22,000 bases of DNA from a virus, in IMG/VR virus record IMGVR_UViG_3300031566_006737, positions 1-22,000 of that record; one strand, 5' to 3'. A model generated the notes under the pieces. The model had not been told where the DNA came from. It worked only from the letters and a program-made list of their open reading frames with translations, and did no database searches. Both the position numbers and the translations under genes were made by a program. Positions 430 to 22,000 of this stretch are shown here, piece after piece (the first letter of the stretch is position 1; the number at the start of each line of letters is the position of its first letter).

Positions 430-519
430 CCTGGCCAGCGATCCGGGTGCCGGTGGCCTGGCCATGGTCCGCAGCCTGGCCAGCGATCCGGGTGCCGGTG
501 GCCTGGCCATGGTCCGCAG
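430..519. repeat. 45-base tandem repeat, two copies
   Basis: Two perfect 45-base copies (430-474 and 475-519) begin CCTGGCCAGCGATCCGGG. They share the GGTGCCGGTGGCCTGGCC core with the repeats at 11-230 but have a different linker. The sequence CTGCTCGGTGCCGATCC follows this array (near 519) and also occurs near 194, so the two arrays are mosaics of the same words. Confidence 0.9.
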
Positions 520-803
520 CTGCTCGGTGCCGATCCGGCCGGCCGCGGGCAGCGGATCGGCGTCGCCGGCGCGGTGCGCGTACAGTGGACGCGCGCCAGG
601 CGGGGGGGGGGGTTCGGCGCGCAATGCCGTCGGACCTACTAAATGGGTAGTGCCAGAAAATTTTATTAGCCAAAGGGGGCCGTCTGTGCGGCCGCACGGC
701 AGCGTTACACGCATTAAGGCGGGTGATTGGGTTGCCGCATGGTTTAAAAGCAATACAGATCGAATTCGTAGGCCGTAGGGCTGTAAAAAAGAAGGGGCGA
801 ATT

Positions 804-1004
804 ATGGGAAAATGTAGCGAATGCGGCGACATTATTCCGGTGTTCGACGGCCGCGAAACGCTTTGCGCCAGCTGCAAAAACCCCCTCCCGCCTTCGCTCG
901 GCGGCATCGGATCCGGCCATTATGAGGATGATATGGACGGACCATCAGGAACATGGGGGTTAATTGTGCGGCTGTACGAGGCCGGTACACGCGGCTTCTT
1001 ATGA
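804..1004 (+). CDS. small zinc-ribbon-like protein
   Basis: The 66-residue product starts at ATG 804, preceded by GAAGGGGCG at a suitable distance. An upstream in-frame GTG at 723 lacks such a site. The N-terminal half has two CxxC pairs (C4-x2-C7 and, about 14 residues later, a CASC pair), which is the layout of a small zinc ribbon or rubredoxin-like knuckle. The C-terminal half is unremarkable. It is the first gene of the left-hand early cluster and lies 33 bases upstream of the HTH gene. Zinc binding is inferred from spacing only, and the function is unknown. Confidence 0.65.
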   Translation: MGKCSECGDIIPVFDGRETLCASCKNPLPPSLGGIGSGHYEDDMDGPSGTWGLIVRLYEAGTRGFL

Positions 1005-1037
1005 AAGATTTGAAGACCTACAGGGAAAGGGGAAAAA

Positions 1038-1664
1038 ATGGACGTTATCTATTCAGAAAAAAAACTGGCTGAAATTATCGGTATATCCCACGCTCTCATG
1101 CGCAAGGCGCGCAAGGAGCATCTGGAAACCGGTGACTATGGACTTACCCGGTACGGCAATCGGCAAGTGATGGCCTACACGCAGGAGGCCGGCCACAAAA
1201 TCCTTGAAAAACTGGCCCATAAAGCGCCGGCGCTGATATTAGGGCGTGATGTACCAACTATCCTCATACTCGCAGACGTGCGGCCGCATGGACCGCCTAA
1301 ACCGCCCGGAAACATCCTCTATCAACCCGCACCACCGAATCAAAAGCTGCTGAGCGCGCCCTGGCTCTGCCCGGCGGCCGAATTCATCGAGCCGGAGCCT
1401 ACTGGAAATATAAAAATCCTGCTTGCCAAGCTGGCCCCGGAATGGGTCAAAGAAAACGGGTTCGATTATTATAACCGGATCCTTTGGCCAATCCTGACGG
1501 ACAAGGAGCGCCAACAAGATAACCTGTTTGAAACCAAAAAATTCCGAATCCGCGTCAATTCAAACATCAATTTCACCTTAAAAATGAGGGTAAAAGCTGA
1601 ATGGATCCAGCAAGACCTATGGGAATGCACCCAGCGGATGCCAAGATGGAGAGGAACATGGTAG
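1038..1664 (+). CDS. HTH DNA-binding protein, early region
   Basis: A 208-residue protein with a strong ribosome binding site (GGGAAAGGGGAAAAA) before its ATG. Residues 5-50 form a helix-turn-helix of the excisionase/MerR-like kind (SEKKLAEIIGISHALMRKAR), followed by a basic strand containing RYGNRQV. The middle is proline-rich. The C-terminus ends PRWRGTW, resembling the PRRRGRW-type ending that I recall from prophage HTH proteins beside replication genes. The last 7 bases overlap the next gene (ATGGTAG), so the two are translationally coupled. A regulator or replication accessory role is likely. Family assignment beyond HTH is from memory. Confidence 0.75.
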   Translation: MDVIYSEKKLAEIIGISHALMRKARKEHLETGDYGLTRYGNRQVMAYTQEAGHKILEKLAHKAPALILGRDVPTILILADVRPHGPPKPPGNILYQPAPPNQKLLSAPWLCPAAEFIEPEPTGNIKILLAKLAPEWVKENGFDYYNRILWPILTDKERQQDNLFETKKFRIRVNSNINFTLKMRVKAEWIQQDLWECTQRMPRWRGTW

Positions 1665-2467
1665 AAAACGGAACAGACGATAAGGCGGGCGGCTACATTA
1701 AGGCGTACCGGAAATTCCAGAAAAACCCGATCTGGAACGACCCTGACCCCTTCGATAAGCGGAGTGCTTGGCTGGACATGCTCTATGAGGCGCGCTGGCA
1801 TCCAACGCCGGCTGTGACCATAATAGGCGGGCATATTGTTGAGGTGCGACGCGGCGAAGTGGCCTATTCATGCAAGACTTGGGGAAGGCGCTGGAAGTGG
1901 GATCGCGATAAGGTAAGAAGGTGGTTTAAAACGCTGGAAAAGTTAGGACAAATTAAGTTGCTGCGCAACACTAAAACGACGCACCTAATTATCTGTAACT
2001 ACGATCTTTACCAAGAATTGTGCGTAGATGATGCGTTGCTGGACGACTATGAAACGACGATGAGCCGCGTACGAAGTGCGTACGAGGTGCGTACAACAGA
2101 AGAAAGAGAAGAAAGAAAAGAAGGAGAAGAAGTAAATGGGGCTTCCTCACCTGATATGCTCAAAATGTTCCAAAACTCACATCCGTCCTGCCGGAAAATC
2201 GGGGAGATCCCCTTCTACGCTTCCATTGCAGCCTGCAGATCCAGTACGACCATGCCCGACGTGGTTGAATCAATCAAGGTTTTCTCTAGGCACATGGCCG
2301 GCGCCGAACTTAAGTATCCGTTGCGGGAATTCGAGAAGTATCTCCGCAAGTCCTATCGGATTCAGGTGGAGCGGGAACTCCGCAAAAAAAAGAAGGCGGC
2401 CGCCCAGGTGAAGAATATTGACACGACCAAACCGCCGAACCAGTACAAAGGAGCACGTAAAAAATGA
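1658..2467 (+). CDS. phage replication initiator (replisome-organiser-like winged helix)
   Basis: The start was placed at ATG 1658 (MVENGTDDKAGGYIKAYRK) because GGAGAGGA ends just upstream; the longer in-frame ORF from 1601 has no such site. The 269-residue product opens with GGYIKAYRKFQKNPIWND, the characteristic opening of phage replisome organisers. A winged-helix follows with a WDRDKVRRWFKTLEKLGQI recognition region. Residues about 140-165 are a charged low-complexity linker encoded by direct repeats and a purine tract. The C-terminal part is basic and helical, ending in a lysine/arginine-rich tail. It overlaps the helicase gene by 4 bases (ATGA), consistent with origin binding and helicase recruitment. 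No separate helicase loader is seen. Confidence 0.75.
   Translation: MVENGTDDKAGGYIKAYRKFQKNPIWNDPDPFDKRSAWLDMLYEARWHPTPAVTIIGGHIVEVRRGEVAYSCKTWGRRWKWDRDKVRRWFKTLEKLGQIKLLRNTKTTHLIICNYDLYQELCVDDALLDDYETTMSRVRSAYEVRTTEEREERKEGEEVNGASSPDMLKMFQNSHPSCRKIGEIPFYASIAACRSSTTMPDVVESIKVFSRHMAGAELKYPLREFEKYLRKSYRIQVERELRKKKKAAAQVKNIDTTKPPNQYKGARKK
2067..2132. repeat. three 11-base direct repeats plus 35-base purine tract (candidate iterons)
   Basis: Inside the initiator gene, GCGTACGAAGT (2067-2077), GCGTACGAGGT (2078-2088) and GCGTACAACAG (2089-2099) lie head to tail. They are followed by an uninterrupted purine run on the + strand at 2098-2132. The 11-base period is close to one helical turn and each of the first two units holds the palindrome CGTACG. 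Many phage initiators bind iterons located within their own gene, so this is a candidate origin. The role is inferred. Confidence 0.6.
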
Positions 2468-3969
2468 GAAATATTGAAGAGCTGCGCATACCGCCCCATT
2501 CGCCAGAAGCCGAGCTAGCCGTCCTGCAAGCGATGTTTATAGATCCCGTCGGATCCATTGGAAAGGCGCAGGGAAAAAAACTGCGGCCGCAAATGTTTTA
2601 TGACGCCCGCCATAAAATGCTCTGCGATAGCCTGTATGAAATGGCGAAAGACGGCCGCGGGATGGATGCCTTAACGATTACGGAATGGCTGAAAGACCGC
2701 AACGAAACAGAACGCATCGGCTATGATGTGCTTGCTTCGATTATGCAGAGCAACAGCCTGGCCGAAAACGTGGGCCCTTATTCTGAGATTGTCATTGAAA
2801 AATATCTGCGGCGGAAGGTCATTGAGATTTCAATAAATCTGATGGATGAGGCTTATGCCGGAGAAAAAACCGGTCAGGAGCTTGTGCGGGATATTCCGAG
2901 GTTGCTGGCCCCGATCATGTCCACCGGTGGCTGTCAGAAGACTAACAAGGAGATACTGGATGCCTGGTATGACCGAATGGTGGCCATTAAAAAAGGGGAG
3001 ATAACCAACGGCCTTCCGCTGCCATGGCCGGCGCTCGATGAGTTAATGTGCGGTCTTGAGCCCGGTTTGATTATCGTCGGAGCAGAAAAAAGCGGCGGCA
3101 AGACGACCTTCGAGTTGAATTTATGCGATCACCTTGCCAGAAACGGCTGCCCAATCGGCCGGGCCGGTCTGGATATGAGTGTGGAGTCACTGCTTTGCCG
3201 CTCGGTGGTCCGCGAGGCCCGCATATCGTTGCCGCGGCTTAAACATGGTCATGCAAAATGGAATCAGATGGCAACGGTCAAGGAGTGCAAGAACCTGATT
3301 GCAACATGGCCTTATTACATCATTGAAAACGGCACCGTGTCTGGAATTTGCCAAGAGGCCCGCATGTTGAAAATCAAGCACGACATTCAGCTGCTAACAG
3401 TCGATTTCATGCAGCTGGTCGTCACGGACGACGGGCGCATCGACAGCAACATGAATATGCTTATGGGAGTGGTGACGCGGACATTCAAAGCCCTGGCATT
3501 TGAGCTTGATATACCTGTAATTTTGTTGAGTCAATTCAGCCGCGCCATAGCCCGGCCGAATGAAAAAAGACGCCGGCCGGTCCTCACGGATCTGCGGGAT
3601 TCCGGCAACATTGAGCAGAATGCCACGCAGGTTATATTGCTCTCCAAGGCGCTCCCTGAAGATTTCCCCGCGATTGCATGGGATGAAAACGGAGAGGAAA
3701 CGGAGTGGCTGACGCTCCCGCCGGAGGCTGAAAAGAAATATTACCGGCCGGTCATAGCGGATCTTGCCAAAAACCAAAACGGTGAAACCGGAGAGATTCC
3801 CCTGGTGCTGGCTGCTAGCTATTTCAGGCTGGACGAAGCGGGAACGGGCTATAAAACGATGGCGGCAGACCTACTCCGGTACGAGCGGGAAACGATTGAT
3901 GAAGAGGCCCAGAGCAGCATACCCGGTGAGCGCGTCTGCGACGGGGATGATGATTTCGATGTGGAGTAG
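2464..3969 (+). CDS. dnaB: replicative DNA helicase, DnaB family
   Basis: A 501-residue protein with full DnaB architecture. The N-terminal helical domain is at residues 8-150 (PPHSPEAELAVLQAMF). The RecA-like motor follows, with Walker A GAEKSGGKTT at 206-215, Walker B LLTVDF at 310-315, the QFSRA motif near 357-361, and the LRDSGNIEQNA arginine-finger region near 377-387. The late AKNQNGETGEIPL motif is near 435-447. Walker A has GAEKSGGKT in place of the common GRPSMGKT but keeps the Lys and Thr. It unwinds DNA at the phage fork as a hexamer. The start overlaps the initiator stop by 4 bases, after AAAGGAG. Repeat arrays lie directly downstream. Confidence 0.93.
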   Translation: MRNIEELRIPPHSPEAELAVLQAMFIDPVGSIGKAQGKKLRPQMFYDARHKMLCDSLYEMAKDGRGMDALTITEWLKDRNETERIGYDVLASIMQSNSLAENVGPYSEIVIEKYLRRKVIEISINLMDEAYAGEKTGQELVRDIPRLLAPIMSTGGCQKTNKEILDAWYDRMVAIKKGEITNGLPLPWPALDELMCGLEPGLIIVGAEKSGGKTTFELNLCDHLARNGCPIGRAGLDMSVESLLCRSVVREARISLPRLKHGHAKWNQMATVKECKNLIATWPYYIIENGTVSGICQEARMLKIKHDIQLLTVDFMQLVVTDDGRIDSNMNMLMGVVTRTFKALAFELDIPVILLSQFSRAIARPNEKRRRPVLTDLRDSGNIEQNATQVILLSKALPEDFPAIAWDENGEETEWLTLPPEAEKKYYRPVIADLAKNQNGETGEIPLVLAASYFRLDEAGTGYKTMAADLLRYERETIDEEAQSSIPGERVCDGDDDFDVE

Positions 3970-4000
3970 AACGATCCACAATGAGCCTGAGCGTTTAAAC

Positions 4001-4072
4001 GGGATTTACGGGATTTACGGGATTTACGGGATTTACGGGATTTACGGGATTTACGGGATTTACGGGATTTAC
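4001..4072. repeat. 9-base tandem array GGGATTTAC x 8
   Basis: Eight perfect head-to-tail copies of GGGATTTAC begin 31 bases after the helicase stop codon. The array passes directly into the 11-base array without a spacer. In one frame it would read as Gly-Ile-Tyr repeats, but no gene uses that frame. Confidence 0.97.
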
Positions 4073-4200
4073 GGAATTTAGACGGAATTTAGACGGAATT
4101 TAGACGGAATTTAGACGGAATTTAGACGGAATTTAGACGGAATTTAGACGGAATTTAGACGGAATTTAGACGGAATTTAGACGGAATTTAGACGGAATTT
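4073..4200. repeat. 11-base tandem array GGAATTTAGAC x 11 plus partial
   Basis: Eleven perfect copies of GGAATTTAGAC (4073-4193) are followed by a partial copy GGAATTT that runs into ATTAGAAGGAG. The unit is related to the adjacent 9-base unit (GG-G/A-ATTTA-C) but has a 2-base insertion. The 11-base length puts copies on nearly the same face of the helix. It lies between the helicase gene and the next small gene. Together with the 9-base array it accounts for most of the 279-base gap and is a candidate replication origin or partition-like site. Confidence 0.97.
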
Positions 4201-4248
4201 ATTAGAAGGAGTTGATTTAACCCGTCCGAGCCGTCCGGGAAAGGATAA

Positions 4249-4461
4249 ATGCAATACTACTGGATAAATAAAGCGATGGAGAACGGCGGCGTTATGACGA
4301 TTACCCGCCGGCGCCGCAAGGTCAAAGCCACCATGTACTGGAAACATGGGAAAAAAGTCCGCGGCCCGGAGAGCCACACGATCCCGGACGCACTTGCGGC
4401 GCTCGACCAGGCGCTCGGTGACGACGCGGCCGATGAAATGATCGAAGGGGGCGGTGTATGA
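4249..4461 (+). CDS. small basic protein of unknown function
   Basis: A 70-residue product preceded by GGGAAAGGATAA, which supports ATG 4249; a shorter start at 4294 (MTITRRRRK) is possible. Residues 15-38 are strongly basic (TRRRRKVKATMYWKHGKK) and the C-terminal third is acidic. No family was recognised. A basic N-terminal patch beside the repeat arrays would suit a nucleic-acid-binding role, but this is only a guess. It overlaps the next gene by 4 bases (ATGA). Confidence 0.6.
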   Translation: MQYYWINKAMENGGVMTITRRRRKVKATMYWKHGKKVRGPESHTIPDALAALDQALGDDAADEMIEGGGV

Positions 4462-4682
4462 AAATTGGCGATGTGTTTATGATCCAGTTCTGCGCTGAAT
4501 TCGGAAGTTTCCGGGTTTTGCCGCTGCGGACCTGCGTAGACCTGGCCAAAAATGCAATGGATACTGGGGAACCGCACAACTGGGTCATTGTGGGTTATGC
4601 ACACGATGAGGGTGATGCCCTGGCAAAAATGAAAGGCATGAGAAAGCCCCAAATCGAGCGCAAACAAGATGAGGGAAGTTAA
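4458..4682 (+). CDS. small protein of unknown function
   Basis: A 74-residue product starting MKIGDVFMIQF, coupled to the preceding gene by an ATGA overlap, with GAAGGGGGCGG upstream as ribosome binding site. It has mixed composition and no membrane segment. The N-terminal part looks like a short beta-rich fold (FGSFRVLPLRTCVDLAKNA) and the tail is basic. No family was recognised. Confidence 0.65.
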   Translation: MKIGDVFMIQFCAEFGSFRVLPLRTCVDLAKNAMDTGEPHNWVIVGYAHDEGDALAKMKGMRKPQIERKQDEGS

Positions 4683-4827
4683 GATAGGTCAGACGCCGGA
4701 GGAACGCTTGAAACAGCTGGAAGCGGCCTATATCGAGCTTTGCCACGATATGGGAATGCTCCGCGCCATCCTGGTTAGGGTACGGGAAGAGAACGCCAAA
4801 GAAACGGAAAAAGACAATGCCACCTAA
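4669..4827 (+). CDS. very small helical protein between two packaging-cluster genes
   Basis: A 52-residue reading frame beginning MREVKIGQTPEERLKQLE and ending in TAA at 4825-4827. It starts 14 bases before the upstream stop and ends 11 bases inside the terminase ATPase gene, so it fits the tight overlapping pattern exactly. It fills what would otherwise be a 134-base gap. The product is mostly helical and charged, with an amphipathic heptad-like stretch (LKQLEAAYIELCHDMGMLRAI). Its position just upstream of the terminase ATPase is where a small terminase subunit would sit, but it is too short for a normal one. Function unknown. Confidence 0.55.
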   Translation: MREVKIGQTPEERLKQLEAAYIELCHDMGMLRAILVRVREENAKETEKDNAT

Positions 4828-5797
4828 ACCGCAAACTCATCCGGTGATCAGAACGCCGCGTGTGGCCGATTTCTGGCGCGCGCCGGATGGATCAATACGG
4901 GAAAAAGAGGTTGTCAGAAAGCTATATGAACAGGCGTGCCAGAGCCGCGATGCCGCCATAATGCAAGAACAGCGGGATCCTATCCGCTATGGCTGGGAAC
5001 CGCCGATCTGGAAGGTCTGCGATGCGCTGCTGGGTCTGCCGCTCTATGATTTGGCTTTTGCAGAAGAGATCGAGGCGCGCTTCGGGTGGGTGTGGGAAGA
5101 GTGGAGCGAAGCCATGCGCCTGAAGCTGCTGCATACATCAACCCGGCTCAAGGTACTGCTTATATCCGGCCCGAACCGTTCCGGCAAAACGGAATATGCG
5201 GCGAAACGCACCAATCAGATAATGAATGACTTTCCCGGCGAGATTGCCTGGTGCTATGCGCAGAACAATGACAACTCCATTGAAATCATGCAGCCGGCGC
5301 TCTATCGGCATTTGCCGGCGGAGATCCGCACCGGCAGCGACATTAAGAGCAAGACCACCTACATTAAATATTCTCAACACAATGGATTTACAGATAACCG
5401 CTACGTGCTGCCGAATGCCAGCCTGGTTTCACTGCGGAACTATTCACAGAAAGAGGAAACGCTGGAAGGACCAGCCCTTAAATGGGTATGGGGCGATGAG
5501 CTGATACCGCCTAATTTCCAAACGACGCTGGAGGGCCGCATTGGCGACCGCGACGGCTGGATGGTGGACACCTTCACGCCGATCAAAGGATGGAGCGCCA
5601 CGGTAAATATGTTTATGTCCGCGTCGGAAATAGCCAAGTCATGTATTGCCTATCTGCTGCCGCTGGACACGCTCGGCCCGGATGAGATTCGCGCCTATGG
5701 TTTTCATAGCGCAGAGGAACGCGCGGCTTGCTGGGCTGACGATCCGCGCCGTACCCGGCCGGAAGACGTGCATTGCTGGTTAGAGGCGGCCGAATGA
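4817..5797 (+). CDS. terminase large subunit, ATPase part
   Basis: A 326-residue protein carrying the packaging motor ATPase. Walker A GPNRSGKT is at 118-125, Walker B with catalytic acid ALKWVWGDE at 220-228, and a coupling motif TFTPIKGWS at 252-260. It powers DNA translocation into the procapsid at the portal. After the coupling motif the usual terminase continuation is absent. About 60 residues of other sequence follow (ending RPEDVHCWLEAAE), then a stop. The missing continuation and the nuclease domain are found in the gene at 7361-8506. Usual large terminases have about 450-650 residues. The start overlaps the small upstream gene by 11 bases. Confidence 0.85.
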   Translation: MPPKPQTHPVIRTPRVADFWRAPDGSIREKEVVRKLYEQACQSRDAAIMQEQRDPIRYGWEPPIWKVCDALLGLPLYDLAFAEEIEARFGWVWEEWSEAMRLKLLHTSTRLKVLLISGPNRSGKTEYAAKRTNQIMNDFPGEIAWCYAQNNDNSIEIMQPALYRHLPAEIRTGSDIKSKTTYIKYSQHNGFTDNRYVLPNASLVSLRNYSQKEETLEGPALKWVWGDELIPPNFQTTLEGRIGDRDGWMVDTFTPIKGWSATVNMFMSASEIAKSCIAYLLPLDTLGPDEIRAYGFHSAEERAACWADDPRRTRPEDVHCWLEAAE

Positions 5798-5818
5798 AAA
5801 ACAAAAAAGGAGAAAAAA

Positions 5819-6358
5819 ATGAGAAAAGTAACGCTCGAATCATTAGTTGAGATACTCACGGAAACCGCCCTCAGAGCCCGCGATTTAGAATGCGCGGAAG
5901 CGGAACTTCAGAAGAAGATTGGGGCTTTGAAGAAGGTCAATTCGGACATAATGGCTGATGTGCTGGGGAGTGAAGTTGAACTTAAGCAGCAGACGGAAAA
6001 AGCTGATGTGCTGGGGAGTGAACTGGCGGATTGCCGCCAGGAAATCAACAGACTCAAGAGTATCTGCCAGGAAATTCCCGACCTTAAGAATCAACTAAGC
6101 TGTGCAAAACGCAGGATTGCGGATGCGCCCAGGCTGCCCGCGCTCACGGACAATATCAACAGCGGTCTTGAAAGGGACAACGCGGTCTTAAAAACCCGCG
6201 CTGACGAATGGAGAAGGGAATATGCAGAACAGGAGCGTTTAAATAAAAAGCTGCGCCGCGACCTAGAAGCCGAGAAGCTCAACATCAGAGGGCTGAAGGA
6301 AACCCTTAAATCGCTGCGCATTAAAAACACTCTGCTAACGAAAAAGATGGTTAAATAG
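5819..6358 (+). CDS. coiled-coil protein of unknown function
   Basis: A 179-residue protein with an excellent ribosome binding site (AAAAAAGGAGAAAAAA). Nearly its whole length is predicted coiled coil by heptad pattern (ELQKKIGALKKVNSDI, ERDNAVLKTRADEWRREYAE), broken by a proline-containing hinge near residue 103-110. The heptapeptide ADVLGSE occurs twice about 17 residues apart, and the DNA there (GCTGATGTGCTGGGGAGTGA) is duplicated exactly. It is the first of three genes lying between the two halves of the terminase. No family was recognised; a structural or scaffolding-like role is possible. Confidence 0.7.
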   Translation: MRKVTLESLVEILTETALRARDLECAEAELQKKIGALKKVNSDIMADVLGSEVELKQQTEKADVLGSELADCRQEINRLKSICQEIPDLKNQLSCAKRRIADAPRLPALTDNINSGLERDNAVLKTRADEWRREYAEQERLNKKLRRDLEAEKLNIRGLKETLKSLRIKNTLLTKKMVK

Positions 6359-6380
6359 AAAACCATAAAAAAGGAGGGAA

Positions 6381-7016
6381 ATGAAAAACCATAAATATTT
6401 TTCATCTGCGCTGCGTGAACTGCTTGCCGAAATCAAAATCACCCAGCGGGAATTTTCCAAGAGAATCGGGGTGGAGCCCGCCATGCTGTCGAAACAGCTG
6501 TCCGGCAGACGGACTTCACCTAAAACACTGCTGCAGGCTTGCGATCCCAAAAACCATGAACAGCGCTCTCGCGGGGTTGACTTGGCAGTGGCGGCTCTGA
6601 AGGATTATCGCAAGGAGCTGGGATATACGAAACAAGACATTAAGGTAATTCCCATTGACCTTGAAAGGTGTGCGCCGGCGTCACCAATACGGGAGAAAAC
6701 GGTAGGGAATGTAAAAATTGTGAACACTTGGAAGAGGTGCGCCAACGGCACCAAGGCTATATTGTACCACTCGCCCTCATGGTGCCCCGGCGATACAGGA
6801 GAAAACGGCAGGGAATGTAAAAGTTGTGACTTCTTCGATGAGGCGATAGCGTACTTTCGGGATTGTGATAACAAGTTTGTTAAGCTGGACAAAGGGCCGT
6901 ATGGTATCTGCAGGATAAACCCGCCGGTAGTTGGTCCGGCTCCTTGGCCGGAAATCGGTTGGGGGGATTGGTGCGGTAAATATAAACCACGAAAGGGAAG
7001 AGAAAATGAAGAATAA
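6381..7016 (+). CDS. XRE-type HTH protein with C-terminal cysteine cluster
   Basis: A 211-residue protein after AAGGAGGGAA. Residues 7-55 form a Cro/CI-like helix-turn-helix (ITQREFSKRIGVEPAMLSKQ). The C-terminal region has a zinc-cluster layout: CKSCDFF, then GICRINPPVVGPAPWPEIG, then DWCGKY. The C-x2-C ... GxCRxNPP ... WPxV/I ... WCG pattern recurs in small phage zinc proteins as I recall them, so this may be a fusion of a repressor-like HTH to such a module. An internal DNA duplication is out of frame (separate entry). It sits between the two terminase genes. Regulation or DNA binding is likely, target unknown. Confidence 0.75.
   Translation: MKNHKYFSSALRELLAEIKITQREFSKRIGVEPAMLSKQLSGRRTSPKTLLQACDPKNHEQRSRGVDLAVAALKDYRKELGYTKQDIKVIPIDLERCAPASPIREKTVGNVKIVNTWKRCANGTKAILYHSPSWCPGDTGENGRECKSCDFFDEAIAYFRDCDNKFVKLDKGPYGICRINPPVVGPAPWPEIGWGDWCGKYKPRKGRENEE
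6692..6843. repeat. internal duplication, 106-base offset, in two frames
   Basis: The 32 bases from GGAGAAAACGGTAGGGAATG at 6692 recur at 6798 with two differences. Similarity decays to about 6737 and 6843. The offset of 106 is not a multiple of three. The copy at 6798 is read in frame as GENGRECKSC, the zinc knuckle of the HTH protein. The copy at 6692 would read GENGRECKNCEHLEE only in a different frame, and in the gene's own frame it gives REKTVGNVKIVNTW. Confidence 0.85.
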
Positions 7017-7359
7017 TGAAGCCCAGGAAAAAGAGATCATCCAGCCGTTTAAAGGGATATGGCTGGAATCGGAACAGCACGCGGTAGCGCTGGCTATGCT
7101 GCAGGAAGATGTTAAGGAACTGCTCTTAACATGGAGCCGTGTTTTACCGCAGCTTGATAAGCTGGCAACGCGGGTTCTAATGGACGACCCTGAACGGGCA
7201 GTGCAAATCGAGGTCCGGCGCATGGCGGGCTTTTCATTAACGAATAAAATGGCCCGCGAAATAAATCAAGAGCGCAGGAAGATATTAGCCGTTATGTGCC
7301 AAATGCAAGACGCCCTAAACTCTATTAACTTTGATAATGTGACTGCCACTGAAGATTGA
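7006..7359 (+). CDS. small helical protein of unknown function
   Basis: The start was set at ATG 7006 (MKNNEAQEKEIIQPF), which has AAAGGGAAGAG upstream and overlaps the preceding gene by 11 bases. A longer in-frame start at 6931 lies within the upstream zinc module and is less likely. The 117-residue product is almost entirely helical and charged, without cysteine clusters or membrane segments. It is followed after one base by the terminase nuclease gene, so the two are probably coupled. No family was recognised. A terminase-associated adaptor is one possibility, but only position supports it. Confidence 0.7.
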   Translation: MKNNEAQEKEIIQPFKGIWLESEQHAVALAMLQEDVKELLLTWSRVLPQLDKLATRVLMDDPERAVQIEVRRMAGFSLTNKMAREINQERRKILAVMCQMQDALNSINFDNVTATED

Positions 7360-7360
7360 A

Positions 7361-8506
7361 ATGATTAGTTTCCAGCAGTGGAAGGAGCAGAGGCTTTGGG
7401 AAAGGCCGGAGCGCATGAGCCAGCCGGCCCCGGAGCCTGGCCGTATGTTCGACCAGGCGCCGCGGGTGGTCCGGTGCTATGCGGACCACCGCGGAGTTGT
7501 GTTCTTCCAGCCGATGGACAACCCTTTCGGTAGTCCTGCAGCCGTGTATAACATATGGAAGACCAACACGGTCCGGGTGATTAGAGAGCGCCTGTATGGA
7601 TGGGCAACGAAGACCTTTAGCGGGCAGTTTCCCGGATTCAGCCGGGAGCTGCATGTATTACCCGAAAGCCGGATCCCGACCGTCGGCACCAACTATCAGA
7701 TGATCGACCCGACGCCTGGCGCGCGGCCGTTCTTCTTCATCTATCTGCGCATTTGCGGTGAAACAGTTTATGTGCTGTCGGATTGGCCGGCACAGGATCC
7801 GCCGGGCGCAGCAGACGTTCCTTTCGGTAAGTGGGCCGAGCCCAGCGGCAAGAAGGGCGGCATCAATGACGGCGATTTGGCTGATGCGGCCGATACTATC
7901 AAGTGGGGTGTCCAGAAATACGTGCAGGAATTCGCCAGGCTTGAAGGCTGGGACTTTGAAGAGGCCCGAACCTTCCGTGAACAAGAGGCGGAAAATGATG
8001 AGGCGGAAGAGAGGGATTATATGTATCCGCATCTTCACAAGGTAGCTTTGATCGAGGCGCGCAATCGCGGATATGACGAGGCCGATGCCGCGCTTCCGGG
8101 ATCCAATGCCAAACTCAAAATAGAGCAGCGGGGCATAGATAGCCGCGCCGCCTCTTCGCCGCGTATCGAGAACGACCGCACTTCATCCTTGTATGAAATG
8201 CTGAAGGACTACGGTTTAGAAATGTGCCTGGCACCCGGCATCGCCATCGACGAGCGCGTGCAAATGACCAACACCCTGTTTGATTACGAAGAGAACGCAG
8301 AAGGCGAAATTATTGATCCGCCTAAACTGTATATCTCTGAGAAGGCGAAAAATCTGATATTTGCGCTTGAATACTGGACCGGTGCCGACGGGCCGAAAGG
8401 GGCAACCAAAGACCCCATTGATTGCCTGTGCTATGCCGCTTGCAAGATCATTTCCGGCGAGTGGTATGATATAACCGAGGAAGTAACGAAACAGGAGGAA
8501 GAATAG
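7361..8506 (+). CDS. terminase large subunit, nuclease part
   Basis: A 381-residue protein that carries the parts of a large terminase missing from the gene at 4817-5797. Residues 34-100 match the end of the ATPase domain and linker (MDNPFG, IRERLYGWATKTFSGQFPGF). An RNase H-like nuclease follows with acidic residues in the expected order: D116 in YQMIDPT, D260 in RGIDSRAA and D354 in KDPIDCLCYAA. It would cut concatemers to start and end packaging. The triad looks intact, so the protein is probably active. There is no Walker A. The first ATG has a weak ribosome binding site; ATG 7415 after CCGGAG is an alternative start. Confidence 0.82.
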   Translation: MISFQQWKEQRLWERPERMSQPAPEPGRMFDQAPRVVRCYADHRGVVFFQPMDNPFGSPAAVYNIWKTNTVRVIRERLYGWATKTFSGQFPGFSRELHVLPESRIPTVGTNYQMIDPTPGARPFFFIYLRICGETVYVLSDWPAQDPPGAADVPFGKWAEPSGKKGGINDGDLADAADTIKWGVQKYVQEFARLEGWDFEEARTFREQEAENDEAEERDYMYPHLHKVALIEARNRGYDEADAALPGSNAKLKIEQRGIDSRAASSPRIENDRTSSLYEMLKDYGLEMCLAPGIAIDERVQMTNTLFDYEENAEGEIIDPPKLYISEKAKNLIFALEYWTGADGPKGATKDPIDCLCYAACKIISGEWYDITEEVTKQEEE

Positions 8507-8733
8507 TGACTCGTAAACGTATGAACAACCGCTATTGGCGTGACTGGTATTCCAACTGGCATCCGAAACTGATTTTCTTCAAGATTTGGTGCGGAGGAAT
8601 GAACTGGGAATGGCACATCTTCTTCATGGAACGTGTGGATAGGCGTTGTTATTTCCGCGTTTGTCCAGACGGGTCTTACCGCTTGGATTACTGTGAATAT
8701 AAACGACGTGAAAAACCCAAGGAGGAAGGATAG
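8506..8733 (+). CDS. small aromatic-rich protein of unknown function
   Basis: A 75-residue product starting at GTG 8506. AGGAGG at 8493-8498 fits this start far better than the in-frame ATG at 8521, and GTG overlaps the terminase stop by one base (TAGTG). It is unusually rich in Trp, Tyr, Phe and Arg (YWRDWYSNWHPKLIFFKIWCGG). It ends in KPKEEG, encoded by the boundary repeat shared with other genes in this array. It is the first member of that array. No family was recognised. Confidence 0.65.
   Translation: MTRKRMNNRYWRDWYSNWHPKLIFFKIWCGGMNWEWHIFFMERVDRRCYFRVCPDGSYRLDYCEYKRREKPKEEG
8716..8733 (+). promoter_or_regulatory. boundary repeat / ribosome binding module, copy 1
   Basis: CCCAAGGAGGAAGGATAG directly precedes ATG 8734. 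It encodes the last residues PKEEG and the stop codon of the upstream gene and supplies the Shine-Dalgarno of the downstream gene. A more diverged relative, AACAGGAGGAAGAATAG, precedes GTG 8506. Confidence 0.85.
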
Positions 8734-8979
8734 ATGGTTAAGCGACAAGTCACATACATGATCGGAGTTCGACCAAAAGGAAGCACAACCTATACACCTG
8801 TTCCTGATCTAGCGATCACGAAGTGGATAACTGCGTATGCAAATTTCTTTGCCACAAAGGATCGGGCTGAGAAAATTTGCAACCTGCTCAAAGATGACCG
8901 GCCACAGCTTGAGTTTGAAATATTCGAGTTCCGTCAGGTTGGGTATACCTGCTCTCCGGGCGGTGGGAGGATTGATTGA
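8734..8979 (+). CDS. small protein of unknown function (cassette array)
   Basis: An 81-residue product with the boundary repeat immediately before its ATG. Reading order suggests a short alpha/beta fold: a strand (VKRQVTYMIGVRPKG), a helix (ATKDRAEKICNLLKDD) and a strand (LEFEIFEFRQVGYTC). No catalytic motif or membrane segment is seen. Its stop overlaps the next start (TGATG). Base composition is lower in GC than the terminase genes upstream. No family was recognised. Confidence 0.65.
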   Translation: MVKRQVTYMIGVRPKGSTTYTPVPDLAITKWITAYANFFATKDRAEKICNLLKDDRPQLEFEIFEFRQVGYTCSPGGGRID

Positions 8980-9212
8980 TGTCTAAAAAACCCGATCACC
9001 TACAGCAGTACCCTACTGCGGATGAGCAAGAGCAATCAGATTGTGCTAAACGCACGATGGTTGGGAGGGGGGAACGCAAGGCACCACAATACGGGCGATT
9101 CTGGCCGGGAATGAACAGTAGGGACGAAACCGATCCGGTAACGATGAAACCTGTTGGCCGTATGTTGTCCGAAGGATTTGAAATGATGGACGACAACGAT
9201 GTTGCCGACTAA
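8979..9212 (+). CDS. small polar protein of unknown function (cassette array)
   Basis: A 77-residue product from ATG 8979, preceded by GGTGGGAGGATTGATTG. The TTG at 8976 is one codon upstream and less likely. The protein is polar, with many Asp, Arg and Met residues (MKPVGRMLSEGFEMMDDND), and looks partly disordered. No domain was recognised. It ends at 9212, immediately before a copy of the boundary repeat. Confidence 0.55.
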   Translation: MSKKPDHLQQYPTADEQEQSDCAKRTMVGRGERKAPQYGRFWPGMNSRDETDPVTMKPVGRMLSEGFEMMDDNDVAD

Positions 9213-9226
9213 CCCAAGGAGGAATG
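9213..9226 (+). promoter_or_regulatory. boundary repeat / ribosome binding module, copy 2
   Basis: CCCAAGGAGGAATG lies between the stop at 9210-9212 and ATG 9227. It matches the shared core over its first 12 bases. Spacing from GGAGG to ATG 9227 is 4 bases, the same as in the ATG-proximal copies at 9415 and 11366, which decides the start codon. Confidence 0.75.
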
Positions 9227-9499
9227 ATGAACTGTTTAAAAAAGAACGGCCATCTTGACGGATCACATTTCACAATATGGGTATGCATCATACTTGCATT
9301 ATCTGTTGTTCCAATAATTCTGCTGTTTAGAAGCATTGGAGATGTTATCCGAAAAGGGCCGAATCATTTTGCCGACCCGTGGAAAGAAGCACTGGATTGT
9401 TTTAAAGATATATACCCAAGGAGGAAGGATGTACGAACACTATTTAAAAACTATAAAACCAAGCGCCATTGCCAGACAAATTCGCCACCGTTTATATAA
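9227..9499 (+). CDS. small membrane protein, probably with a recombined 3' end
   Basis: A 90-residue frame starting at ATG 9227. Residues about 15-34 form one hydrophobic membrane segment (FTIWVCIILALSVVPIILLF), followed by a soluble tail. From residue about 64 the frame runs through a boundary repeat and 71 bases into the downstream methyltransferase gene in another frame, ending in a basic sequence unlike the rest. This suggests that the original end was lost when the methyltransferase cassette joined here. Function unknown; small one-pass proteins are common in phage accessory regions. Confidence 0.55.
   Translation: MNCLKKNGHLDGSHFTIWVCIILALSVVPIILLFRSIGDVIRKGPNHFADPWKEALDCFKDIYPRRKDVRTLFKNYKTKRHCQTNSPPFI
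9415..9428 (+). promoter_or_regulatory. boundary repeat / ribosome binding module, copy 3
   Basis: An exact CCCAAGGAGGAAGG is followed directly by ATG 9429 of the methyltransferase. Unlike most copies it lies inside the reading frame of the upstream gene, where it encodes YPRRKD rather than a PKEEG ending. Confidence 0.85.
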
Positions 9500-10073
9500 A
9501 ACACTAATAGGAGGTTCGACCAAAGCGTTGGAGTTTGGAATAGGATATGGGTATTTTCGCGACTACTGTTTCAATGAAGGAATAGATTATACCGGAGTTG
9601 ATTTTTCCAAGGGATTAGCAGACTTGGCAGACATAGATACGATCATAACGCCAATACCAGAGGGGATGTCGCTTGTTCCTTATGGATATGATCTTATATT
9701 TGCAGAACACTTCATTGAACACATGGATGGACATGACTCCGTGATGAAGTTTCTTATTGGATGCAGGAAAAGATTAAATAATGGAGGAAGGATTATATTG
9801 CTCTACCCTAATATGAATAAACACTTTTGGCATGATCCAACTCATCAATATCCCACCAACAAAAAGCGAATTGAAAGGTGTTTAATTGATGCGGGATTTC
9901 ATGTTATGGAAAGCGATGATTATGCTCATTGCCTTGTTGGTGTTTTTGATACCATTCTGATTAAACTAATTGGATATTTAATGCCCGCAAATTTGAGGGT
10001 ATCATTACATTTTTGCGTACATTCATACACGAAAGGATTAGCGCAGGAAGCCACCAAGGTAGGAGAAAAATGA
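9429..10073 (+). CDS. class I SAM-dependent methyltransferase
   Basis: A 214-residue protein. ATG 9429 is chosen over the longer in-frame ORF at 9336 because it follows the boundary repeat exactly. SAM-binding motif I is ALEFGIGYGYFRDY, with an acidic end to strand 2 (YTGVDFS). A YDLIFAEHFIEHM motif IV region and GGRIILLYPN follow, as in the Methyltransf_11/23 families. No DNA-methyltransferase catalytic motif (DPPY or PCQ) is present, so the substrate is more likely a small molecule, glycan or protein. The gene is visibly more AT-rich than its neighbours, suggesting separate acquisition. Its stop (TGA 10071-10073) overlaps the next start. Confidence 0.8.
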   Translation: MYEHYLKTIKPSAIARQIRHRLYKTLIGGSTKALEFGIGYGYFRDYCFNEGIDYTGVDFSKGLADLADIDTIITPIPEGMSLVPYGYDLIFAEHFIEHMDGHDSVMKFLIGCRKRLNNGGRIILLYPNMNKHFWHDPTHQYPTNKKRIERCLIDAGFHVMESDDYAHCLVGVFDTILIKLIGYLMPANLRVSLHFCVHSYTKGLAQEATKVGEK

Positions 10074-11074
10074 ATGAGCTACATCTATTTGCAGGAGCAG
10101 GAGGAGGGATCTTGGGTGGAATGCTGCTCGGACACACCACCGTTTGCGCTGTTGAAATCGAAGAGTATCCAAGAAAAGTCCTCCTCCAGCGGCAACGTGA
10201 CGGAATCCTCCCCAAATTCCCCATCTGGGACGATGTCACCACCTTCGACGGAAAACCATGGAGGGGAAAAGTTGATGTCGTGTGCGGAGGATTCCCCTGC
10301 CAGGACATTTCAGCCGCTGGCAAAGGTGCTGGCATCGAGGGCAAAAGAAGCGGGCTGTGGTCAGAGTTTGCAAGAATTATCGGTGAAGTACGACCGCGAT
10401 ACGCATTCGTGGAAAACTCACCAATGCTTGTGGGAAGAGGACTTGCCGTGGTCCTCGGTGACCTTGCCGAAATGGGGTATGATGCAAGGTGGTGTATTTT
10501 GGGAGCTGACGATATTGGAGCGCCCCATCGTAGAAAAAGAATATGGATCTTGGCCCTCGCCAACCTGCAACATGGTTTCGGGCGGCCCGAACCACAACAG
10601 CCCGCAGGTGATAGCCGGCAATCACGGGATCAATCTTCACGGCGCGGTTTTGAAGATATGGCCGACCGCATCTGCGCGGGATTGGAAGGACACGCCGGGC
10701 ATGAGCCAAACCGGCACCAACCCGGACGGCTCAACGCGGAACAGGACAGATCAACTGGCGCGCGCGGTTTATGCCGATGGTGGCAAAACGACCCCGCAGA
10801 AGTTTCCGACCCCGAATGCGCGGGATTGGAAGGGCAAGCCGGGACCGAATGCGAATCAACGCGAATCATCCCTGCCGCCGGTTGTGGGGGAGGATGTAAA
10901 GACCGTGGGCAAACTCAACCCAGATTGGGTAGAGTGGCTTATGGGGTGGCCCATCGGGTGGACCGACTTAAAGCCATTGGCAATGGGCAGGTTTCAATCG
11001 TGGCTGCAACAGCATGGGAACTATTAGCAGAAAACGACCGGGCTGAGTTGATCGGCGAACAAACTCAAGATTAA
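10070..11074 (+). CDS. dcm: DNA (cytosine-5) methyltransferase
   Basis: A 334-residue protein with the C5-methyltransferase motifs in order: motif I LHLFAGAGGGILGG (4-17), motif IV GGFPCQDIS (73-81, catalytic Cys77), motif VI ENSP (115-118), motif VIII GAPHRRKRIWILA (150-162), and late motifs IX-X RVDRLKAIGNGQV (296-308). The target recognition region (about 165-285) is divergent and holds two copies of CAGLEG. It methylates cytosine in a sequence that cannot be predicted here. No restriction partner is visible, so it is an orphan enzyme, probably protecting phage DNA. The start is ATG 10070, with AGGTAGGAGAAAA upstream. A 317-codon ORF lies inside it in the +1 frame. Motif VI reads ENSP in place of the usual ENV. 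Confidence 0.9.
   Translation: MNELHLFAGAGGGILGGMLLGHTTVCAVEIEEYPRKVLLQRQRDGILPKFPIWDDVTTFDGKPWRGKVDVVCGGFPCQDISAAGKGAGIEGKRSGLWSEFARIIGEVRPRYAFVENSPMLVGRGLAVVLGDLAEMGYDARWCILGADDIGAPHRRKRIWILALANLQHGFGRPEPQQPAGDSRQSRDQSSRRGFEDMADRICAGLEGHAGHEPNRHQPGRLNAEQDRSTGARGLCRWWQNDPAEVSDPECAGLEGQAGTECESTRIIPAAGCGGGCKDRGQTQPRLGRVAYGVAHRVDRLKAIGNGQVSIVAATAWELLAENDRAELIGEQTQD
10074..11027 (+). CDS. overprinted +1-frame ORF inside the cytosine methyltransferase
   Basis: A 317-codon frame starting 4 bases after the methyltransferase ATG (ATGAATG), so both can use the same ribosome binding site. The product is Trp- and Ser-rich, with SWKTHQCLWEEDLPWSSVTL, two ARDWK motifs (SARDWKDTPG, NARDWKGKPG) and LNPDWVEWLMGWPIGWTDL near the C-terminus. 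I recall proteins with ARDWKD and WVEWLMGWPIGWT motifs in many phage genomes, next to or overlapping such methyltransferases. A stop-free frame this long in about 55% GC DNA is unlikely by chance. It could still be a shadow kept open by methyltransferase codon use. Function unknown. Confidence 0.5.
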   Translation: MSYIYLQEQEEGSWVECCSDTPPFALLKSKSIQEKSSSSGNVTESSPNSPSGTMSPPSTENHGGEKLMSCAEDSPARTFQPLAKVLASRAKEAGCGQSLQELSVKYDRDTHSWKTHQCLWEEDLPWSSVTLPKWGMMQGGVFWELTILERPIVEKEYGSWPSPTCNMVSGGPNHNSPQVIAGNHGINLHGAVLKIWPTASARDWKDTPGMSQTGTNPDGSTRNRTDQLARAVYADGGKTTPQKFPTPNARDWKGKPGPNANQRESSLPPVVGEDVKTVGKLNPDWVEWLMGWPIGWTDLKPLAMGRFQSWLQQHGNY

Positions 11075-11143
11075 AAACCGGCGTGGTCTAAGATTATCGG
11101 TGAGGTTATCAGAATTCTTGAGGAAGAACCCAAGGAGGGATAG
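11075..11143 (+). pseudogene. remnant coding tail ending EEPKEG
   Basis: Directly after the methyltransferase stop, the same frame stays open for 22 codons (KPAWSKIIGEVIRILEEEPKEG) to TAG 11141-11143, with no start codon. The ending EEPKEG matches the PKEEG endings of other genes in this array. It is best read as the 3' end of a cassette gene whose 5' part was replaced, or as a lost C-terminal extension of the methyltransferase. Confidence 0.45.
11129..11143 (+). promoter_or_regulatory. boundary repeat / ribosome binding module, copy 4
   Basis: CCCAAGGAGGGATAG precedes ATG 11144. It is the copy-1 sequence with three bases missing from the middle. The deletion of exactly three bases keeps the upstream frame, giving PKEG-stop instead of PKEEG-stop. 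Confidence 0.8.
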
Positions 11144-11341
11144 ATGAATAAAATGAGTACAGGCGATGACGCAACACTTGGAAATTACCGCAAGATGGCG
11201 GTTGCTGTTTTCGGGGAAGAAAGCAAAGCGGTTAAATTTTTGGACGACAAAATTACTGCAAGCCCAAGCGGTGAGAACGAAGAAGTGATTGCTGATGAGG
11301 GGCAGATGGTGAATTTGCTTGTAACGATGGCATTCAGTTAG
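11144..11341 (+). CDS. small phage protein of unknown function (cassette array)
   Basis: A 65-residue acidic product from ATG 11144, directly after a boundary repeat. Recognisable segments are NYRKMAVAVFGEESKAVKFL and EEVIADEGQMVNLL. I recall similar short phage proteins with an NYR...FGxDS...FL...DExQM pattern, but no function is attached to them. It is mostly helical by composition, with no membrane segment. A 38-base gap with another boundary repeat separates it from the next gene. Confidence 0.65.
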   Translation: MNKMSTGDDATLGNYRKMAVAVFGEESKAVKFLDDKITASPSGENEEVIADEGQMVNLLVTMAFS

Positions 11342-11365
11342 ACCAATAACAAATTAAAGGATCAA

Positions 11366-11379
11366 CCCAAGGAGGAAGG
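11366..11379 (+). promoter_or_regulatory. boundary repeat / ribosome binding module, copy 5
   Basis: An exact CCCAAGGAGGAAGG is followed directly by ATG 11380. Here it is fully intergenic: the upstream gene stopped at 11341, so the sequence is kept without any protein-coding reason in the upstream frame. Confidence 0.85.
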
Positions 11380-11748
11380 ATGAGACTTAAAGCATACTCA
11401 GTGACAGAGTGCCATGAAAACCAAGGCTTTATCTGTTGGGCTGAAAATCCGAAGGAGGCAAAAAAGCTCGGTATAGGCTCAGATGAAACCTATGGGGCCG
11501 ACTACATTGATCTGCGATGCCGCAGAGCACCAGAGGCGGATGAGATGTATTACGGCAAAGCAATCTGCGATTGGTACACCGAAGAAGGTCAGCGGATATA
11601 TTGGAAGCTCGGATGGTGGCTCGAAGACGGTCGCCAATGTCAGGGGTGCTACGACTGCTGGGAGTACGACAAGGTTCCAGAGTCGAGGCTAAACGATGAT
11701 GGGTTGTGTTCTGTTTGTGCCAAGGAGCAACCCAAGGAGGAAGGATAG
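11380..11748 (+). CDS. phage protein with C-terminal zinc-binding-like cysteines
   Basis: A 122-residue protein beginning MRLKAYSVTECHENQGF. It contains CRRAPEAD, resembling the CRRAPWAD signature that I recall from hypothetical proteins of many tailed phages. A cysteine cluster follows (CQGCYDCWEYD, about 16 residues, then LCSVC), a likely zinc site. The protein ends EQPKEEG-stop, encoded by the next boundary repeat. Function is unknown; the N-terminal part may form a small beta fold (ICWAENPKEAKKLGIG). Tryptophan content is high. Confidence 0.72.
   Translation: MRLKAYSVTECHENQGFICWAENPKEAKKLGIGSDETYGADYIDLRCRRAPEADEMYYGKAICDWYTEEGQRIYWKLGWWLEDGRQCQGCYDCWEYDKVPESRLNDDGLCSVCAKEQPKEEG
11731..11748 (+). 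promoter_or_regulatory. boundary repeat / ribosome binding module, copy 6
   Basis: CCCAAGGAGGAAGGATAG precedes ATG 11749 and is identical over all 18 bases to copy 1 at 8716, about 3 kb away. It again encodes PKEEG-stop for the gene upstream. Confidence 0.88.
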
Positions 11749-11898
11749 ATGTCGCAATTAAAAGTAAGACTGGACAGGAAAACATTAAAGCGATGGGCGA
11801 AAAACTGTGGAGCAAAGCCCAAATGGTGGCATGGTTCCGAGTATATCCGTTCCTTATGTATTAACAAATTAAACGAGCACCACAAGGAGGAAGGATGA
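11749..11898 (+). CDS. very small basic protein (cassette array)
   Basis: A 49-residue frame from ATG 11749 (MSQLKVRLDRKTLKRWAKNC) to TGA 11896-11898. It follows an exact boundary repeat and ends HHKEEG, again encoded by the next copy of that repeat. The product is strongly basic in its first half. No family was recognised. Fit with the flanking modules at both ends is the main support for it as a real gene. Confidence 0.6.
   Translation: MSQLKVRLDRKTLKRWAKNCGAKPKWWHGSEYIRSLCINKLNEHHKEEG
11881..11894 (+). promoter_or_regulatory. boundary repeat / ribosome binding module, copy 7
   Basis: CACAAGGAGGAAGG, one base different from the core, is followed by ATG 11895. The upstream stop overlaps the start (ATGA). 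This is the last copy; genes further right use unrelated ribosome binding sites. Confidence 0.82.
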
Positions 11899-12005
11899 AT
11901 AAGGAAATGATATTAAATTGGATATACGTCCACCCGCTCGAAACCGTCATTATCGGTGCGACGCTGGTGTTCATCGCCTGTATGCTGATCGCATTAAGGA
12001 AATGA
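11895..12005 (+). CDS. very small single-pass membrane protein
   Basis: A 36-residue frame beginning MNKEMILNWIYVHPLE. Residues about 14-33 form one hydrophobic helix (ETVIIGATLVFIACMLIAL), ending in RK, which suggests an N-out, C-in orientation. It has a boundary-repeat ribosome binding site and a 4-base overlap with the gene upstream. Small one-pass proteins of this kind may act in lysis or superinfection exclusion, but nothing here decides that. Confidence 0.55.
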   Translation: MNKEMILNWIYVHPLETVIIGATLVFIACMLIALRK

Positions 12006-15218: not shown

Positions 15219-15731
15219 ATGCACAAAAAACTGATAATCGGAATGCTGGCGGTGCTGGCATTGGTGGTTTGCACGGTAGATGCGGCCACAACGGTGAACC
15301 CGCAACGGCTCGGAATTGAAGAAATGGCGTCCCACATGGGGGCGAATTTCCTGGTTGAAATCTCGTATGCGGACTTTACGCAAACGGCAACCAACAACAC
15401 CGAGGAATTTACTTGGGACATTGCAGCCGGGCAGGGCTTCACGCTGCTGTACGCCGAGGTGGTGCAGGAATTCGTCGGATCAACAACCAACGGTACCGAT
15501 AACATGGCGGTGATTGTTGGCGATGATGCGGATACCGACCAATTCCTTGTGTCTATGAAAATGGCGACCGAAGAAACGGAGGTGGTCGGTAAATTCGGCA
15601 CAGGCACGGCAGACGGCGTGTTTTATGAAGCCGCGGATACCATTGACTTCCTTTTCACGCCAAATCTCGACCGCGCACCAGCCGCATTTTCCGCAGGGAA
15701 AGTACGCTTTTGGTGTTTTGTCGTTGAGTAG
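15219..15731 (+). CDS. secreted beta-rich virion-module protein
   Basis: A 170-residue protein behind AAATAGGAGAGTAAA, a site close to that of the capsid gene. Residues 1-22 look like a Sec signal peptide: a basic start (HKK), a hydrophobic core (LIIGMLAVLALVVC) and a likely cleavage after VDA. The mature part is beta-rich, acidic and low in lysine, as in cement or decoration proteins. It is followed at once by a strong terminator, so capsid and this protein may be the most highly expressed genes. A signal peptide is unexpected for an intracellularly assembled phage protein. Confidence 0.65.
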   Translation: MHKKLIIGMLAVLALVVCTVDAATTVNPQRLGIEEMASHMGANFLVEISYADFTQTATNNTEEFTWDIAAGQGFTLLYAEVVQEFVGSTTNGTDNMAVIVGDDADTDQFLVSMKMATEETEVVGKFGTGTADGVFYEAADTIDFLFTPNLDRAPAAFSAGKVRFWCFVVE

Positions 15732-21063: not shown

Positions 21064-22000
21064 ATGAAAAAACTGATTATACTTTGTCTGATCCTGGCCG
21101 GCACCGGCGCCTTTGCGAGTGTGCGCTCTGATTATGAAACAGCCTTACAGGCATACATGCTCAATGAATCACCGGCGAACCTGACGGTTTTGCAAAGTGC
21201 GACATCGGCTTATATTTCCCTGGGGACCGCCAGGCTGATCAATCCGGCGGTATCTGCCATGGATCGTCTTATCGCCTTTAACGGCGTGCTGGATGTGATA
21301 GATGAGCCCTGGGTCAGCACGGCGGATCTTCCGGCGCTGGAAGGCCAGTTCTATACGAATGTCGTGCTGATGGCCATAGATTACCCGGAACCGGAGCTGC
21401 CGGGTGCGGATGCCAATATCAATGCGGCCGCGATTTATGCGCATATCCACTTGAATGCTGCTTCTTATCCAGAGGCACACACCTATTTTGTGACGGATCG
21501 AAACACGCGGCTTATTCAAATGGTTGTTAATGACAGTCTTCCCGCTAAGGAGCGGCTGATAGCGTTCCATGCGTGCGTCGTCTATCAGGATGATGGCGCC
21601 TTTACCCCGCTACAGTTATTCCGGGCAGCTGCTAACTTCACCATGGAAGATCACCCGTTTTATGATCGAGGAAACCGAATTGCTAATATGCCTGATGGCA
21701 CCACACAAATATTTACGTGGCTTAAGCAAAATCAGGACTTGGATCCGGTAAAATATGAAGCCTGTAAAGCATACCATCTGGCGCGATTAGAAAACGACCG
21801 TTCACTGGATTACCTGGTGTACTTCAGCGAAATGGAATTTATCGCCGGCAGCCCGGCCTGGATTTATCAGAACCAGGTTGCGGCGGCTTTGGGTGCCAAT
21901 GACCTGCCGGCCGCCAAGGCCGCCTTTGGCGCATTCTACGCCGCGGAACCGAAGGACCACCGGCAAATCGCAAGACTCATCAGACAAGCCTTTTCACAGG
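21064..22000 (+). CDS. secreted helical-repeat protein, 3' end outside the window
   Basis: The reading frame is open from ATG 21064 to the window edge (312 codons seen, no stop). AATCGGAAGGAAATTAAACT lies upstream and the previous stop is 3 bases before the start. Residues 1-18 form a signal peptide (MKKLIILCLILAGTGAFA) with a type I cleavage site after AFA. The mature part is alpha-helical with paired helices and alanine-rich turns (YETALQAYMLNESPAN, AALGANDLPAAKAAFGAFY), similar in feel to TPR proteins. Function unknown. It is the third virion-module gene in a row of otherwise structural genes to have a signal peptide. Confidence 0.65.
   Translation, partial: MKKLIILCLILAGTGAFASVRSDYETALQAYMLNESPANLTVLQSATSAYISLGTARLINPAVSAMDRLIAFNGVLDVIDEPWVSTADLPALEGQFYTNVVLMAIDYPEPELPGADANINAAAIYAHIHLNAASYPEAHTYFVTDRNTRLIQMVVNDSLPAKERLIAFHACVVYQDDGAFTPLQLFRAAANFTMEDHPFYDRGNRIANMPDGTTQIFTWLKQNQDLDPVKYEACKAYHLARLENDRSLDYLVYFSEMEFIAGSPAWIYQNQVAAALGANDLPAAKAAFGAFYAAEPKDHRQIARLIRQAFSQ

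Follow-up and report, generated by a model that had tools for sequence, protein, structure and literature searches.

Cluster K mycobacteriophages carry start associated sequences (SAS), 13-nucleotide (nt) repeats in the position of the ribosome binding site (RBS) that are conserved beyond the bases pairing with 16S rRNA; the sections of PMC3203893 that deal with these repeats give their function as unknown. SAS are also reported for Cluster EF Microbacterium phages in the part of PMC7302621 devoted to them. All the phage literature that we found on SAS concerns phages of actinobacteria. In the mosaic lambdoid phages, short sequences conserved at gene junctions have been suggested to be recombination points. 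T4-like phages have promoter-early stem-loop (PeSL) cassettes, short regulatory repeats at gene boundaries that are proposed to mediate shuffling, as described in PMC4503421. Here we describe a repeated RBS module with the consensus CCCAAGGAGGAAGG in the IMG/VR virus record IMGVR_UViG_3300031566_006737; the stretch analysed, 22,000 bases long, is referred to as the window. Judging from sequence alone, the module is probably a start-associated translation-initiation element, SAS-like in character, whose copies arose inside the genome of this phage.

Exact copies of the 14-mer CCCAAGGAGGAAGG were found at 8716, 9415, 11366 and 11731, the four positions named in a preliminary description of this DNA, and the near variants listed there at 9213, 11129 and 11881 proved to have one, three and one mismatches, respectively. 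The 11129 copy seems best explained by a 3-nt deletion, CCCAAGGAG---GGATAG. All seven copies are on the plus strand, as are the other features of 8490–11898 given below, and each is followed by an ATG, as had been described, the starts being 8734, 9227, 9429, 11144, 11380, 11749 and 11895. The module is about 14–23 bases long, (AA)CCCAAGGAGGAAGGAT(AG). Numbered from the left, copies 1 (exact, AACCCAAGGAGGAAGGATAG), 2 (one mismatch), 3 (exact), 4 (the deleted form, CCCAAGGAGGGATAG) and 6 (exact) occupy 8714–8733, 9211–9226, 9415–9428, 11127–11143 and 11729–11748. Copies 5 and 7, the latter with one mismatch, are taken here with their upstream flanks as 11347–11383 and 11862–11898, two direct repeats with 89% identity over 37 nt, of which 16/19 positions match upstream of the module.

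The number of copies exceeds the chance expectation. There were seven matches with three or fewer mismatches, against a shuffled mean of 2.15 (standard deviation 1.40, largest value 6 in 100 shuffles), and the window outside 8490–11900 had none at that threshold, which agrees with the confinement claimed earlier. When tandem arrays were excluded, 16 pairs of exact 17-mers more than 150 nt apart were found, every one in the module, with about 0.014 expected by chance; the module is thus the sole non-tandem repeat of at least 17 bases in the window. The reported identity of the copies at 8716 and 11731 reaches 23 nt (8714–8736 and 11729–11751, AACCCAAGGAGGAAGGATAGATG). Copies 1 and 2 are not assembly errors, since a second contig, L005 (IMG/VR contig 3300031673_008812), repeats both unchanged. 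This near-identical fragment of 8863 bases matches window positions 468–9325 and differs from it only in a minisatellite near 4075. The minisatellite (3999–4201) has repeat units of 9 nt (ACGGGATTT) that give way to units of 11 nt (ACGGAATTTAG).

Two diverged relatives had also been proposed. The one at 8490–8506 is plausible: it lies at the 3' end of a putative terminase nuclease gene (KQEEE-stop), precedes the GTG at 8506, and in its part 8493–8506 (AGGAGGAAGAATAG) matches 8720–8733 in 13/14 positions. The other, at 10055 (CAAGGTAGGAGAAAAATG), has only the purine core typical of ordinary starts and was dropped. Likewise, the idea that the module separates successive genes held at seven starts and failed for 2/10 gene starts in the block, 8979 and 10070, which have no module, while 8506 has the diverged form only.

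The core AAGGAGG is a Shine-Dalgarno (SD) sequence that pairs with the tail of 16S rRNA; the CCC before it and the AAGG after it do not pair. Sites with AAGGAGG and an ATG 3–10 nt downstream were compared between the window, which has seven, one of them (6371) outside the module, and 83 comparison loci that were not fetched by motif, which have 43. CCC preceded the core at 5/7 window sites and 0/43 comparison sites (Fisher 1e-5), and AAGG followed it at 5/7 and 0/43, so that the conservation past the SD core noted earlier was borne out on both sides. In a wider locus set that includes motif-fetched loci, the counts were 4/124 for CCC and 0/124 for AAGG. The top identical start-linked 14-mer has four copies in the window; by the same count the stretch of phage TM4, used as a positive control, has five, in keeping with a likeness to SAS, and the other 82 of the 83 loci have two or fewer. 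An earlier count over 122 loci, mostly motif-fetched, gave a maximum of three, in one locus; with a mean length under half that of the window, these loci put the window at some advantage. Because the conserved bases exceed the anti-SD core and differ from those at other AAGGAGG starts, these comparisons support common ancestry of the module copies, rather than SD function alone.

The likeness to SAS extends to several other properties. As far as SAS are characterized in the relevant sections of PMC3203893 and PMC7302621, they and the module are both asymmetric repeats of 13–14 nt in the RBS position, lie before several unrelated genes, mostly in one orientation, and have few or no copies elsewhere. 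All seven module copies stand before starts, with the ATG 4–8 nt past the core. Cluster K SAS precede non-structural genes (PMC3203893), and the module does likewise, with the capsid gene (PF17236) and the portal-like gene outside the block. There are also differences. The SAS consensus is GGGATAGGAGCCC or GGGAAAGGACCCC, and because this differs from CCCAAGGAGGAAGG the module is to be regarded as SAS-like and not as a copy of those families. Cluster K sites mostly follow gaps of more than 50 bp (PMC3203893), whereas the module, unlike most SAS, overlaps or abuts the 3' end of the upstream gene. In the TM4 stretch 1/10 sites starts inside the upstream gene, while three copies of the module encode an upstream C-terminus. 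No ESAS-like inverted repeat was seen beside the window copies. A search of the open-licence literature for phage RBS modules that are repeated or lie at gene boundaries found no closer case. One viral contig (L050) contains three identical start-linked 14-mers (AGAAAGGAGCAGAA), possibly another SAS-like element.

In a single frame the module reads CCC AAG GAG GAA GGA followed by a stop, TAG or TGA. The start codon lies directly behind the GG (GGATG), so that the ATG is 4 nt past the core (GGATGA), or four bases further, 8 nt past it (GGATAGATG); the module sequence is therefore kept while the start shifts. PKEEG or HKEEG is the real C-terminus of three genes: a 75-residue gene at 8506–8733, whose ending REKPKEEG comes from copy 1, a 122-residue gene at 11380–11748, ending KEQPKEEG, and a 49-residue gene at 11749–11898, ending NEHHKEEG. 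The preliminary description had several copies encode the upstream C-terminus, which is right for these three but not for the PKEG at 11129, since the latter comes after the stop of the methyltransferase gene (11072–11074). In phase with the upstream open reading frame (ORF) are 6/7 copies, that at 9415 being the only one out of phase; those at 9213, 11129 and 11366 are in phase, yet past the upstream stop. The copies that do not encode C-termini lie within an ORF or 0–54 nt past the stop of the preceding gene.

Two explanations of the in-phase tails beyond stops were rejected. Loss of a PKEG-ending C-terminus from the methyltransferase is contradicted by its homologues, most of which terminate no more than a few residues from query position 319–322 (77/80 loci reach query position 300), so the tail after the stop is not ancestral methyltransferase sequence. 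Recoding fails because the stops ahead of the tails (TAA, TAA and TAG) and those of the module (TAG and TGA) fit no single stop reassignment.

The module joins a full anti-16S SD core to fixed flanks and an in-phase stop. If it is an SAS-like initiation element, a copy between two genes could close the reading frame on its upstream side (PKEEG-stop), bring in the ribosome and open the gene that follows, and with translation presumably beginning at the module starts, the block 8506–12005 could be read as one translationally coupled run. The copies may have spread by duplication or by recombination together with gene segments. The most direct case would be the two-gene segment 11380–11898, which lies between the 37-nt direct repeats; that the copies spread by recombination is a natural and plausible reading of these repeats.

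Several observations weigh against this interpretation. The evidence comes from a single genome, so recent copying is inseparable from selection on a functional site, and deletion, duplication and exchange look alike. Most pairs of copies are dissimilar outside the module, with 3–10/19 upstream matches, the exception being 11366/11881, and a score of 16/19 is also reached by some other 19-mer pairs in the block (98 of 3.46 million, a count in which the modules and overlapping windows are included). Of the six in-phase copies, three end on the module's own stop, which makes their phase given; among the other four copies, 3/4 in phase is not significant (about 0.11). The modules share no RNA structure, with z-scores from -0.75 to +1.39, and have no stable hairpin.

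A more ambitious version, which we regard as possible but doubtful, makes the module a portable stop-RBS-start junction with a standard C-terminal tail. ORFs recombined into it would end in PKEEG or soon before and pass the ribosome on to the following gene, the accessory operon could be extended while remaining coupled, and the shared tail would be a scar of assembly.

Given about as little credence is the proposal of a boundary cassette array, in which short identical modules would provide the homology for swapping ready-to-translate accessory genes between phages. The two-gene segment between 37-nt repeats of 89% identity fits such exchange, as do the C-termini common to unrelated genes. 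Base composition points the same way: GC content at third codon positions is lower and more varied in the ten genes within 8506–12005 than in the 15 genes outside (p 0.0007), and the genes at 9227 and 9429 have 38% GC, compared with 52–57% for six genes from the capsid gene to the right end. Paralogy among the flanked proteins was not convincing, the best blastp match having an E value of 0.004 over 17–20 residues, which also fits this proposal. However, no relative with different content between the modules was found; L005 is near-identical and ends at 9325. Moreover, 14–23 nt is generally considered short for homologous recombination unless a phage annealase takes part, and no annealase turned up, though none was specifically searched for. 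The C5 cytosine methyltransferase gene, the most obviously mobile one, has an ordinary start and no module before it. The recombination-boundary idea of the preliminary description is partly supported, by copies related by descent, by one segment between direct repeats and by the lower and more varied GC content at third positions, but exchange between phages gained nothing from a search that yielded no differing relative. PeSL cassettes, in the account of them in PMC4503421, are an analogue for shuffling mediated by short regulatory repeats at gene boundaries. The window module differs from them in having no excess of promoters or terminators and no stable stem-loop: the block has five promoter-like signals (5.5 expected) and two terminator-like signals (3.9 expected), with none at the modules. 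Lambdoid boundary sequences are common to phages at one junction, whereas here one sequence occurs at several junctions of one genome.

Searches with the portal, the terminase nuclease, the capsid, gene 11380 and the 9429 methyltransferase yielded no close relative besides L005. The nearest named phages have 20–28% identity to the portal, capsid and terminase ATPase; they are Phage C75C1 and, for capsid and terminase, Vibrio phages, and the Pfam match of the capsid is PF17236, the SU10 family. A 21-mer of the module was found in the collections solely in L005, and a 17-mer in two contigs, with a single copy in each (L006 was checked for more copies, and both contigs entered the count over 122 loci). 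At least 119 IMG/VR stretches contain a single exact copy of the 14-mer CCCAAGGAGGAAGG; 121 matches were counted in 122 loci, with an ATG within 12 nt at 37/121, and because the matches are spread in this way no contig with multiple copies was seen. Among 84,980 genomes an 18-mer had two matches, in a Levybacteria metagenome-assembled genome and in a Paenibacillus, and a blastn query made by joining two copies of the module gave nothing better than an E value of 8 among named phages.

A translational operator, at which an RNA-binding protein of phage or host, or an RNA, would recognize the site and co-regulate the genes, is improbable. It would account for the keeping of flank bases that are unable to pair with the 16S tail, and the three GGA triplets of the module would presumably suit a regulator of the CsrA type. 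The same argument from flanks was made for Cluster K SAS (PMC3203893). On the other side, the copies have no common structure, no candidate regulator was identified, and one pair of copies is similar beyond the site, which regulation would not need. Convergence of ordinary strong SD sites, with PKEEG a by-product of AAG-GAG-GAA in a frame fixed by stop and start, is just as improbable: a canonical SD does form the core, which in that frame can only be translated as KEE, and single 14-mers are widespread in IMG/VR, some of them near an ATG, but identity outside the core, as in the 23-nt match and the CCC contrast, disfavours it, and the sequences ahead of the other gene starts of the window are mostly AT-rich and unlike the module.

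The 75-residue gene at 8506–8733 has no Pfam or PHROG match, and the 81-residue gene at 8734–8979, which takes its start from copy 1, has no family match. It is followed by a 77-residue gene (8979–9212) with an ordinary SD, GGGAGG, and no module; copy 2 comes right after its TAA, in frame. A 90-residue ORF (9227–9499) crosses copy 3 out of frame and runs into the next gene, which encodes a protein with a class I methyltransferase domain (9429–10073, PF13489). The C5 cytosine DNA methyltransferase gene (10070–11074, PF00145) comes next, and the tail of copy 4 lies in its phase. A 65-residue gene at 11144–11341 has an in-frame TNNKLKDQPKEEG tail after its stop. The 122-residue protein of 11380–11748, of unknown function, matches phrog_9207 (E 3e-5).

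A +1-frame ORF (10074–11027) that matches phrog_1008 (E 5e-25) overlaps the C5 methyltransferase gene over nearly its whole length. The +1 frame had tblastn matches in 80/80 homologous viral loci, and it stays open for 200 codons or more in 68/69 distinct genes, the window included, the exception being L162 with 142 codons. In 54/69 genes none of 300 synonymous permutations reached the observed run. The homologues are not independent, since they were selected by similarity to the window gene. A stretch of the +1 ORF, LNPDWVEWLMGWPIGWTDL, resembles C5 motif IX, and frame 0 carries the remaining C5 motifs and motif X. The gene for the smaller polypeptide of M.EcoHK31I reportedly overlaps in another frame. 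That polypeptide bears motif IX alone, as stated in the portion of PMC3404938 that describes the enzyme. The window methyltransferase, on these resemblances, looks like a two-polypeptide enzyme of the M.EcoHK31I type, one that would be widespread in phages. The single annotated record examined, around homologue L208, has one frame annotated only.

Other features lie outside the block. The terminase large subunit is apparently split, with three genes of other kinds between a gene for the ATPase (4817–5797, Walker A GPNRSGKT) and one that is nuclease-like (7361–8506); the roles are assigned from motifs, and the ATPase part is supported by the named-phage relatives. Three genes of the structural block (15219–15731, 19120–21060 and 21064–22000) have signal-peptide-like N-termini, MHKKLIIGMLAVLALVV, MKKITIGMLLLAGC and MKKLIILCLILAG, which is unusual for virion proteins. 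The left contig end (1–520) is GC-rich (72%) and contains 78-nt and 45-nt tandem repeats.

Phages continually acquire small genes, but the route by which a newcomer obtains a functional start signal within a tightly packed operon is seldom visible. If the interpretation given here is true, a connector of stop, RBS and start that leaves a scar in the protein would make gene gain traceable in sequence, and testable, and SAS-like elements would extend to a phage that is only distantly connected with those of Cluster K and Cluster EF, for which the SAS papers found describe them.

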